Source: Roseburia sp.
Lineage (GTDB): Bacteria > Bacteroidota > Bacteroidia > Bacteroidales > Bacteroidaceae
Length of the DNA: 64,000 nt
Direction of reading: 5' to 3'
Assembly: GCA_023665185.1 (NCBI GenBank)
Contig: JAMPEL010000003.1
Coordinates: 39,556 to 103,555 of the forward strand
In this document: piece by piece, positions 1 through 64,000 of the stretch
Numbering within the stretch: the stretch's first letter is position 1
Layout: every line of letters begins with the position of its first letter
The notes under the pieces: model-generated
Told to the model about the DNA's origin: nothing
What the model saw: the letters and a program-made list of their open reading frames with translations, nothing else
The model's database searches: none
Program-made: the position numbers and the translations under genes

Positions 1-141
1 AGTACGCAAAAAACACAAACAAAACATCGCAAATATTAAAACTCAACTCTATAAAAACAAGATGAATCACGCAAAATGTCGGATACCCCCAAAAGCGGAA
101 AAATCGGTAGTGTTTCACAGAGTGTGTCTGAATAAGAATAA

Positions 142-20527: not shown

Positions 20528-20680
20528 GACAGACTCCTCCGTCACTTCGTGACACATCCCCTAACTTAAGGGAGGAGCTGTATACCTTGTCAATCAACAC
20601 GTTAGTTTCTCTGCCAACATGGTAACCAGGTTCCTCCCCTAAGTTAGGGGAGGTGTCACAAAGTGACGGAGGAGTCTGTC
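20528..20680. repeat. Inverted-repeat element with 48-bp arms
   Basis: Left arm 20528-20575 and right arm 20633-20680 are reverse complements over 48 bases with about three mismatches. Each arm begins with GACAGACTCCTCCGTCACTT, and the 57-base centre is unrelated. It has no coding capacity and looks like a MITE or a folded RNA element. Just to the left, two degenerate copies of the motif (AGACAGACTCTTTGACTTTTTG near 20440 and AGATAGATTCTTTGACTTTTTG near 20482) precede it. Confidence 0.8.
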
Positions 20681-20712
20681 CGAAAAGTCAATAAAATTTA
20701 GAATATTCCTTA

Positions 20713-21376
20713 CAATTTGATATGTTAAATCCCATCTCCGTAGAATCGCCTCAAAATGAACCGGACTCAACCTCGGTTGCAAAAACGCGATTCTACGGAG
20801 GCTTTTAACCCCCGAAAATAGAGTGGACAAACAGAACAACCCAGACGACAAAAAGACATATAAATTTCCTCCCAAACATACCTTTCCCATCCAAAAGCCC
20901 ACAAAAACCCAAAATTACAAGGTGCTGAAAATTTATTTCCAAGGCACACTGATTTTTTTCGCAAGGTACACGAAATTTATTTTCAAGGTGAACAAAATTT
21001 TCAAAGCCCGTTTTTCGGGTCAAAATCGGACATTTTCCCGAATCACTTTCTCAAAAAGACGGTAACAGCCTTTTCAATGCCCCGAAAAACAAAAATGGAT
21101 TTTGAACCCGAAAAAAGACAATTTTAAGACAAAATTTTCATAACTCGCTGATTATCAACACATCCTATTTTGACTCCAACCATGTGTTTTTGGTCTAAAA
21201 CTGCATACTTTCTACCAAAAACACATTTAATTGATTATCAGTGACTTACCAACAAAACATTCAAAAATCAAGCACCAAGTCAAAGTCGGCAGCCGCCAAA
21301 ATGTTAAAAATGCGCCTTCCCGCAAAAGTGACATAATGTCAAAACATCACTTGTCCGCATACCGCTGTCCTGCAAT
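20713..21376 (+). repeat. Dispersed non-coding repeat, copy 1
   Basis: This stretch matches 46537-47166 over about 630 bases at an estimated 75-80 percent by eye, and its right end also matches the window end in reverse. Landmarks in order: CAATTTGATATGTTAAA, a 13-bp perfect stem TCCGTAGAATCGC (20737-20749 with 20787-20799), four 22-bp repeats (20918-21005), the hairpin GCCCGTTTTTCGGG, two TGATTATCA palindromes, and the palindrome GACATAATGTC near 21330. Similarity to copy 3 continues about 35 bases past this palindrome. All frames are broken by stops, and frames do not agree between copies, so it is not a gene. Confidence 0.85.
20918..21005 (+). repeat. Four 22-bp direct repeats in copy 1
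   Basis: Units start at 20918, 20940, 20962 and 20984, exactly 22 bases apart. Each begins CAAGG and continues as an A/T-rich run such as AAATTTATTTT. The same period is kept in copy 2. Regular spacing of two helical turns suggests a protein-binding array, as in iterons. Confidence 0.8.
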
Positions 21377-21556
21377 ATGTGCGACTGGATGGTTCGGGTT
21401 GGAGACTTCCGTTTATAATGCACATAGAAGCGATGCAATGGATGCAGGGAGACGCTGCAATATATTTGAGGTCATCCGACATTTGGAATGGCTTGTTTTG
21501 CTTATTATAGAGTTGGAGGATTAATATGGGTGATGGCTTCCGATGTATTTGGATTG

Positions 21557-21597: not shown

Positions 21598-21708
21598 AAG
21601 TATGCATACGGTGTAAATGTCATTATCACTCCAAATGCCGGATGAGAACAGGCTTACAGACAATGATGTACATAGGCAATACGAAATGACGAAGGAGACT
21701 GCCAAGAA

Positions 21709-29947: not shown

Positions 29948-30012
29948 ATCCCATTGCATTGCAGCCGCGACTACAGAAAGGAAAGATGTAGTCAAAATAA
30001 TGACAATGGAAT
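29948..30012 (-). promoter_or_regulatory. Nested stem-loop in the rpsK-rpsD gap, candidate S4 leader
   Basis: An outer helix pairs ATCCCATTGCATT (29948-29960) with AATGACAATGGAAT (29999-30012), with a bulge and one mismatch, and an inner perfect helix GACTACA/TGTAGTC (29969-29975, 29987-29993) closes an 11-base loop. The gap is far longer than most others in the operon. S4 autoregulation is known in other phyla; here it is inferred from position and structure only. Confidence 0.45.
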
Positions 30013-45992: not shown

Positions 45993-46536
45993 GGGACACA
46001 ACACACCAAAAAGCGGTGCAAAATTAGTAATTTTCTATCAAATAGCACATTATTCTTGAAAGAAAAACCTTTTCTTTTACAAAAGAGGTGCCATAAAGCC
46101 GTATTTTTAGTATTATTTAACCCTAAAAGCATGTTTCAAACACTTTTTTATGGGTAAAAAAGCACTTCTAAAGCATGAAAAGAGCGACAAGGCAAAGTGA
46201 ATGGAGAAAAATATCGAACCGCGTTTCCATATCTTTTCCTCGCCAATTGGCACGGGCAAAAGCTATACGGCATATAGCTCTTACACCTTATTATATAATA
46301 TGTGGGAAAACAAAACGGATACACACCGCGTAAATCACGATAAAGCCGCTTGCCTCGTGTGTGTGTTCAAGCACGGTCTTTTGGATCAGCACACGTCCTA
46401 TACTGGTGTATTTGCCCGATGCCTCTGTCACAAGCCACCTATCCATCACATATATCACCGGAACAAAAAATTTGCCAGACATATAAAAAAGCAGCAGCAA
46501 ACTACAAAATCCTATCAAAAAAGCCAAAAATTTAGA
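45993..46536. other. Gene-free stretch before repeat copy 2
   Basis: No convincing gene. A plus-strand open frame from 46201 has a Walker-A-like IGTGKS by chance, but it runs into the repeat. On the minus strand a TTG-started frame (46291-46539) begins at the repeat edge with a hydrophobic stretch (FLAFLIGFCSLLLLFYMSGK) and then ends; it may be a decayed membrane-protein gene, but evidence is weak. Confidence 0.4.
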
Positions 46537-46741
46537 CAATTTGATATGTTAAAATCAAATTCCGTAGAATCGCCTCAAAATGAACCGGACTCCGCCGAGG
46601 TTGCAAAAACGCGATTCTACGGAGGGTTTTGAGTCTTGAATTTCAAGTGGACAAAAAGAACAATATGACCGACTAAAAGACTCATAAGTTCAAGCAAAAA
46701 TGCGCCAATTCCACCCAAAAGCCCAACAAAAGCCAAAATTG

Positions 46742-46829
46742 CAAGGTGCTGAAAATTTTTTTACAAGGTACACCAATTTTTTGCGCAAGGTGAACGAAAT
46801 TTATTTTCAAGGCGCACAAAATTTTCAAA
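46742..46829 (+). repeat. Four 22-bp direct repeats in copy 2
   Basis: Units start at 46742, 46764, 46786 and 46808, each exactly 22 bases, each opening CAAGG and followed by A/T-rich DNA. The units are not identical to those of copy 1, but the spacing is kept to the base, which points to selection on spacing. Confidence 0.8.
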
Positions 46830-46861
46830 GCCCGTTTTTCGGGTCAAAATCGGGCTTTTTT
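46827..46861 (+). terminator. Intrinsic-terminator-like hairpin inside repeat copy 2
   Basis: AAAGCCCG (46827-46834) pairs with CGGGCTTT (46851-46858), followed by T residues to 46861. The same place in copy 1 keeps only the inner CCCG/CGGG pairs. If the repeat is transcribed on the plus strand, this would end a short RNA. Confidence 0.5.
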
Positions 46862-47166
46862 CAGAATCTTCCTCTCAAAAAGACCACAATCAGCTTTTCC
46901 ATGCTCCGAAAAACAAAAATGGATTTTGAGTCCGAAAAATGACGGTTTTGAACGCAAAATCTCATAACTATCTGATTATCAACACTCTCTATTTTAACCC
47001 AAACCCTTAGTTTTTAGGCTAAAACTGCACACTTTTTGCTAAAAACATATTCATCTGATTATCTGATACTTAGCACTAATTGGAATCATTTTGAGAAGAT
47101 TTCAAAGCACAAGCGAATGTCCGGAATGTTAAAATCGAGCATTTTCGCCAACTGACATAATGTCAA

Positions 47167-63820: not shown

Positions 63821-64000
63821 TTGCCGGACAACAGTATGCGGGCAAGGGCGGTTTTGACATTATGTCACTTTGCGGAGAGCCTCGTTTTTTAACATTTCCG
63901 CTGCCTCTTGCTCTTGTCTGATGCTTTATTTTTTAGCGTCTTACCTGTAAGTATTTGATAATCAATTGAATATATTTTCAGTAAAAAGTACGTAGTTTTA
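63821..64000 (-). repeat. Dispersed non-coding repeat, copy 3 (inverted, cut by window end)
   Basis: On the minus strand the end of the window matches the right end of copy 1: TAAAACTACGTACTTTTTAC at the edge, a TGATTATCA palindrome, GCAAAGTGACATAATGTC (63855-63866 core), then TTGCCCGCATACTGTTGTCC. It is clearly a third copy, in reverse orientation; its 22-bp units would lie beyond 64000. Confidence 0.75.

Follow-up and report, generated by a model that had tools for sequence, protein, structure and literature searches.

A dispersed intergenic element with phased 22-bp repeats and a minimum inter-copy distance in a genus of Bacteroidales

The genome of the gut bacterium analysed here (G000; 3.38 Mb, 126 contigs) carries roughly 190-250 copies of a non-coding element that is confined to intergenic DNA, has a core of nearly constant length built around an array of 22-bp repeats, and keeps a distance of at least about 5 kb between neighbouring copies in the sampled stretches of this genome and of a sister species. 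The explanation placed first, although only tentatively, is that these elements are putative protein-binding DNA sites organising the chromosome, which were spread by transposition and are kept by selection. From the patterns described below we infer the protein binding, the transposase and the chromosome-organising role.

Copies in the window and their anatomy

The window, a stretch of 64,000 nucleotides corresponding to positions 39556-103555 of contig C60, contains three dispersed copies of the element (Table 1), in the order in which the initial annotation had placed them; the core limits were taken from an nhmmer model built on 51 copies. All of the parts listed in that annotation, namely the stem, the 22-bp array, the CCCG hairpin, the TGATTATCA palindromes and the TGACATAATGTCA end, are present, and the proposed divergence of 20-25% agrees with the 80% identity between copies 1 and 2. 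Two genes have copy 2 on their 5' side, rpsL and a divergent dsbD-like gene; no outer repeats were detected at this copy. Copy 3 is truncated by the end of the window and then, 78 bp further, by the end of the contig. A further truncated copy lies just to the left of the window (core at C60:39243-39455), and window positions 1-86 are a remnant of the truncated left-flank element, with an outer repeat at about 67-86.

Table 1. Parts of the element copies in the window (window coordinates)
Feature	Position	Strand	Basis
Copy 1, core, 630 bp	20712..21341	+	nhmmer, C60:60267-60896, 667 bits
Copy 2, core, 631 bp	46535..47165	+	nhmmer, C60:86090-86720, 609 bits
Copy 3, 3' part only (model 488-632)	63855..64000	-	nhmmer, C60:103410-103554
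Inverted repeat, left arm CTCCGTAGAATCGC	20736..20749	+	sequence; columns nearly invariant in 49 copies
Inverted repeat, right arm GCGATTCTACGGAG	20787..20800	+	sequence; columns nearly invariant in 49 copies
Four 22-bp repeats (CAAGG...), copy 1	20918..21005	+	starts 20918/20940/20962/20984
Four 22-bp repeats, copy 2	46742..46829	+	starts 46742/46764/46786/46808
CCCG-TTTTT-CGGG inverted repeat	21007..21019	+	sequence
Palindrome 1, CTGATTATCA	21148..21157	+	conserved at >=90% in 51 copies
Palindrome 2, TGATTATCA	21232..21240	+	conserved at >=90% in 51 copies
Right end palindrome TGACATAATGTCA	21329..21341	+	element position 630-633 in nearly all copies
REPIN-like imperfect palindrome, 150 bp, directly 5' of copy 1	20530..20680	.	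18/22 sampled G000 palindromes adjoin the 5' end of a core
Unconstrained 3' tail of copy 1	21342..21472	+	14/14 sampled tails joined to the 3' end of a core
Degenerate outer terminal inverted repeat TCACTCCAAATGCCGGATGA, 3' of copy 1	21626..21645	-	120 such sites genome-wide

The arms of the inverted repeat in copy 1 are 12-14 bp in length, and the block around palindrome 2 is the portion that matches the sister species by blastn. The REPIN-like palindrome 5' of copy 1 and the outer inverted repeat 3' of it both lie beyond the interval 20713-21376 to which the initial annotation had assigned this copy. The palindrome is part of most long forms of the element in G000, and 18 of 22 sampled copies of the palindrome in this genome are directly 5' of a core. 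The possibility that the REPIN-like hairpin and the 3' tail are independent repeats was rejected, since no sampled tail stands without a core and most hairpins lie 5' of one. The REPIN-like palindrome, CTCCTCCGTCACTTCGTGACACCTCCCCTAA..., is mainly found at element 5' ends in G000 and mainly elsewhere in the sister species G002.

Copy number and coding capacity

The two observations that the initial annotation had named as refuting its reading, copies limited to the window and loss of the internal spacing, are not made: about 200 copies are present in the genome, and the core length is kept among them (see below). The 21-bp core word CAAGGTGCTGAAAATTTATTT has 254 matches in G000 at up to three mismatches and the 24-bp hairpin-arm word has 151, with none for the reversed control in either case; these counts include fragments because many contig ends fall inside copies. 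Extrapolation from 47 elements in 0.84 Mb of long contigs gives about 190. With sizes of 0.63-1.2 kb, about 200 copies and no conserved frame, the element corresponds to what is expected of a MITE in being short, multicopy and non-coding. The absence of a conserved frame had been noted initially and holds in the larger set, in which the core length of 632 bp is not a multiple of three and variants of plus or minus 1 bp occur; a coding sequence was rejected on the lack of a frame and on this length.

Constraint on the core

The core measures 631-633 bp (632 +-1 bp) in 47 of 49 full-length G000 copies, despite differences between pairs at 19% of sites; the retention of length noted initially for three copies thus holds in this larger set. 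The cores of G002 measure 662-664 bp in 50 of 66 cases. For the same G000 copies, indels per substitution amount to 0.016 within the core as against 0.10 within the 3' tail, while private indels number 6 per 632 core columns against 29 per 177 tail columns, which makes them 17-fold rarer in the core; across the two measures, core indels are 6-17 times rarer than those of the adjacent tail. All 17 copies that lack the outer inverted repeat and tail still have a core of 630-632 bp. The neutral decay after insertion that would characterise a MITE is thus not observed, since the spacing is kept even in copies without outer repeats.

Conservation is unevenly distributed along the core, with 312 of 632 columns conserved at 95% or more, where a uniform star model predicts about 8% of columns, and 172 of 632 conserved below 80%. 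Variable core sites are near linkage equilibrium beyond about 60 bp. As to gene conversion as the sole source of similarity, this decay of linkage over tens of bases fits conversion tracts or, alternatively, old saturated copies under site-specific constraint. The core pattern fits sites held under position-specific constraint, with a possible contribution of short conversion tracts, and is unlike that of decaying transposon copies. The constraint seen in private changes could partly reflect selection along active lineages before insertion.

Distribution among sister species

The genomes of two sister species in the same genus (G001 and G002) have hundreds of candidate elements that follow this plan with a sequence of their own, at copy numbers like those in G000; the G000 words themselves were absent from both genomes in a word search. 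The plan comprises a left TGTTAAAA, a GATTCTACG block, 22-bp repeats, TGATTATCA, a second TGTTAAA and a TGTCA end. The 10-bp core of the 22-bp repeats is species-specific, being of the CAAGG type in G000, CACCGCGGTG in G001 and CAGYGCRCTG in G002. In 1.13 Mb of G002, 209 of 214 exact occurrences of this dyad are inside elements, and the spacing between neighbouring dyads is exactly 22 bp in 254 of 262 cases. Phasing of the A-tracts, at about 21 and 42 bp, was seen in both species analysed.

A sequence search in 200 genomes of the family did not find the element outside the genus except for one marginal match of 60 bp, and no comparable dispersed repeat was seen in 100-200 kb from each of three other genera of the family. 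Phage, plasmid and viral collections contained no match to the element, and no earlier description of it was found in the literature searched. On these comparisons the element family appears to be genus-specific. For a protein encoded in the window, the nearest named relatives are two MAGs, one of a Bacteroidaceae bacterium obtained from the colon of water deer (92%) and one of a Prevotellaceae bacterium (90%), followed by Bacteroides, Phocaeicola and Paraprevotella at 60-67%; the organism is therefore assigned to a genus of the Bacteroidaceae.

Spacing and genomic placement

The spacing analysis covered stretches that add up to 0.84 Mb in G000 and 1.13 Mb in G002. The 39 neighbour gaps on eight long contigs of G000 have a minimum of 5.18 kb, a mean of 17.3 kb and a CV of 0.45, and the 67 gaps of G002 have a minimum of 5.06 kb, a mean of 12.9 kb and a CV of 0.46. 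None of the 106 gaps is below 5 kb. Simulations that placed elements at random at transcription-unit boundaries, with a weighting by gene orientation, give 10.7 and 28.8 such gaps, or about 40 altogether, and none of 5,000 runs was free of them. An exclusion zone around existing copies, as in Mu/Tn7-type systems, is therefore present. On the remaining G000 contigs, word positions are never closer than 5.1 kb, with the exception of one rearranged pair separated by 141 bp.

Exclusion is seen alike for same-direction, convergent and divergent pairs of neighbours. Since inverted pairs are excluded equally, recombination between direct repeats does not explain the spacing, and deletion between close direct repeats was rejected as its cause; restriction of insertion to gene boundaries was ruled out by the simulation. 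The elements are intergenic in all cases, with none within genes, and are enriched two- to three-fold in divergent spaces (16/37 and 28/70, against a background of 52/366 and 86/455).

Mobility

In G000 a long form of the element, 0.97-1.2 kb in size, has the outer ends GGTTCATCCGACATTTCGAGTGA ... TCACTCGAAATGTCGGATGAACC; ends of this kind number 120 in the genome. Terminal inverted repeats were found at 24 tails and at both ends of 12 copies, and many copies are without them; a different inner pair, TTTTGACAAAATGATA/TATCATTTTGTCAAA, is present in G002. The target-site duplications that the initial annotation had suggested looking for are not evident, as the 12 two-ended G000 copies show no consistent one. 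One long form is inserted in an older core, and the outer repeat of the inserted form lies immediately next to the sequence that it interrupts. This nested insertion (L019:1204-2591, on contig C45 of G000), in which about 310 bp of the older copy are lost, shows that the outer repeat is the left end of the unit. Inverted half elements about 100 bp apart at C71:75138-75688 and C42:8993-9154 of G000 are rearranged composites.

Between G000 and G002, orthologous gene ends share the element in 6 of 16 occupied against 8 of 223 unoccupied cases (stratified z = 4.3), and a smaller first orthology test had given one shared and 4 + 3 unshared positions. Most orthologous positions are not shared, and the orientation of the shared ones is random. 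The excess of partial sharing combined with random orientation suggests that elements reached favoured intergenic spaces independently. The outer inverted repeats, the nested insertion and the species-specific positions support the earlier suggestion of a mobile non-autonomous element as far as the spread of the family is concerned.

A second, short array family

About 20 short, near-perfect palindromes of about 165 bp were found in the 1.13-Mb sample of G002. They mostly contain four dyads at a 21-bp period, and their sequence is unrelated to that of the long element. Only one of them is nearer than 4.4 kb to a long element, where 9.3 are expected, and the gaps that hold short arrays are longer (mean 20.2 kb vs 11.1 kb). 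When long and short elements are combined, the mean gap becomes 10.1 kb with a CV of 0.37, and the maximum on the contigs concerned falls from 33.9 to 18.8 kb. The spacing effect of a related short array in G000 is weaker (P = 0.03), and one array lies 308 bp from a long element. One orthologous gap holds a long element in G000 and a short array in G002, and upstream of rpsL, which in G000 is the site of copy 2 of the long element, G001 has a short array at a distance of about 650 bp.

In G000 the short palindromic 21-bp arrays are located on three of eight sampled contigs, C38, C49 and C71 (10-14 in 389 kb; for example C49:17732, 61946, 75087 and 93771, and C38:2680, 65577 and 82086), and are absent on the other five (456 kb), so that their distribution is possibly regional and macrodomain-like.

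Proposed role and alternative explanations

In the explanation that we tentatively prefer, the sites would arrive by transposition and individual copies would then be kept by selection. Each site may serve as a binding platform for a sequence-specific, probably dimeric protein, in which four or five 10-bp dyads at a 22-bp period, together with the phased A-tracts, would form a multi-protein DNA complex; since 22 bp represent two helical turns, the dyads would be presented on one face of the DNA. The inverted repeat, the TGATTATCA boxes and the TGACATAATGTCA end would be held at fixed spacing within this platform. The approximately 200 sites of a genome, which keep a distance of 5 kb or more and prefer the intergenic DNA of divergent genes, would most likely anchor or delimit loops or topological domains of about 10-15 kb, and the minimum distance is most readily understood either as a spacing requirement of the organising system or as immunity exerted by the bound protein. 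The dyads are confined to elements, phased at exactly 22 bp and distributed chromosome-wide, as would be expected of a nucleoid-organising set of sites. A chromosome-organising role, one of the options named in the initial annotation, is the most economical account of the strict spacing and of selection on the core, without being proven by them. An old fixed system would not be expected to show partly shared positions and random orientation, except with turnover of its sites, and the weak spacing of short arrays in G000 and the nested insertion also count against organising sites. Moreover, target immunity at insertion would yield an identical exclusion zone without function.

It is possible, although doubtful, that the element is purely selfish, a non-autonomous MITE-like unit whose 22-bp repeats are transposase or regulator sites and whose exclusion zone reflects Mu/Tn7-type target immunity at insertion; the constant core would then result from selection for transposition in a recombining intragenomic population rather than from host function. 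The outer inverted repeats GGTTCATCCGACATTTCGAGTGA at 120 sites, the nested insertion, and the species-specific positions with random orientation are all consistent with this, as is the cis-immunity of Mu, which is strongest around 5 kb and decays between 5 and 25 kb (PMC7350765), close to the gap histogram. However, function is ranked above pure selfishness because copies without outer repeats keep the geometry, holding the core length within 2 bp after the loss of repeats and tail, and the 17-fold deficit of private indels in the core points in the same direction. Furthermore, no Y1/RAYT transposase exceeds the Pfam cut-off in the three genomes of the genus (controls positive in 5 of 14), and the Mu-type C-terminal domain PF09299 has no match in the genus, although the control genomes are equally silent and this search is therefore uninformative. 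The lack of a clear target-site duplication, a core divergence of 19%, which is high for an active family, and the distance kept by the unrelated short arrays of G002 also speak against selfishness alone. An unlikely alternative is a cis-regulatory module, that is, a bidirectional promoter, operator or insulator between divergent operons which was spread by transposition and retained where it regulates its neighbours. The two- to three-fold enrichment in divergent spaces with no copies inside genes would suit such a module, and the BrickBuilt element of Porphyromonas gingivalis, which likewise has internal repeats, of 23 bp, contains bidirectional promoter elements (PMC4596501). Nevertheless, the core has no conserved promoter pair of the Bacteroidetes type (TTTG...TAnnTTTG), an exclusion of 5 kb across the genome would not follow from regulation of individual genes, and in the sister species most orthologous genes are without the element.

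A technical origin of the spacing, with close pairs lost where repeats break the assembly, is very improbable. Many contigs do end within an element, but short contigs (e.g. 4.2 kb) are present, and since most elements on long contigs were assembled through, close pairs would sometimes be expected, while none was found in two independent assemblies. A family of structured non-coding RNA genes, another option of the initial annotation, is scarcely credible. Folding of the alignment gives one stable hairpin of 12-14 bp at the left end, and for most of the remaining core shuffled columns fold at least as well. The compensatory changes proposed as a check on the stems do not occur in 49 copies; the arms are nearly invariant, which leaves no covariation to count and makes the test uninformative. 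No Rfam family matches the element, and the G002 consensus does not preserve the pairing of the stem, retaining just GATTCTACG from its right arm.

An extended form of the preferred explanation, which we consider possible but regard with reserve, would be a genus-wide layout of the chromosome by a grid of compound protein-binding sites that spreads and spaces itself, with one site in about 10 kb and a second array family filling the gaps. In such a grid the binding specificity, given by the dyad, would have switched in all of the approximately 200 sites between sister species, so that the sites and their protein would co-evolve in concert.

Relation to known systems

Topological domains in bacteria are of the order of 10 kb, and to our knowledge no sequence that sets them has been described for most bacteria. 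The known matS, Noc and SlmA sites are single short palindromes, and 22-bp protein sites are familiar from the ends of Mu and Tn7.

Among described elements the BrickBuilt MITE of P. gingivalis comes closest; it has 19 copies with a leader, tandem 23-bp repeats, a tail and small inverted ends (PMC4596501). It shares with the present element the occurrence in Bacteroidales, exclusively intergenic location, the leader/tandem-repeat/tail plan, small terminal inverted repeats, the lack of a transposase inside the element and restriction to a species. It differs in its unrelated sequence, in having 19 rather than about 200 copies, and in the variable number of its 23-bp repeats, in place of a fixed 22-bp set within a length-constant core; no spacing rule is reported in the portion of its description consulted. 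Like the REPIN/BIME sequences associated with RAYT, the element forms an intragenomic sequence population of hundreds of intergenic copies (PMC3116915, PMC8049555), and a REPIN-like hairpin accompanies most of the G000 copies. However, a REPIN or BIME is a pair of 20-40 bp palindromes, in contrast to a 630-bp core with a strict minimum distance between copies, and unlike in the REPIN/RAYT system there is no RAYT/Y1 over the cut-off in the genus.

Mu cis-immunity appears to be the closest known analogue of the spacing, in that exclusion extends over about 5 kb and is gradually released to about 25 kb. Unlike in Mu and Tn7, the repeats are in the middle rather than at the ends of the element, and a second, unrelated array family is excluded too. 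The matS/MatP, Noc and SlmA sets also consist of many sites dispersed over the chromosome, which organise it or place division (PMC4726725); the resemblance is in the proposed role, with binding being predicted in the present case. They differ from the 630-660 bp unit described here, with its 4-5 phased dyads, minimum distance, mobile origin and dyads that change between sister species. None of the known systems compared combines all of the features of the element. If it organises the chromosome, the genus would offer a natural experiment in the origin, spread and changing specificity of such sites; if it is selfish, the spacing would represent a clear in-genome footprint of target immunity at the scale of a whole chromosome.

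Other features of the window

An S4-Bacteroidia ribosomal protein leader is located on the reverse strand at window positions 29962-29993, above the Rfam gathering score. The region 204-20207 resembles a cluster of SusC/SusD-type, fasciclin-like and GH43 genes, the GH43 assignment alone being Pfam-checked, and is probably a polysaccharide utilisation locus.
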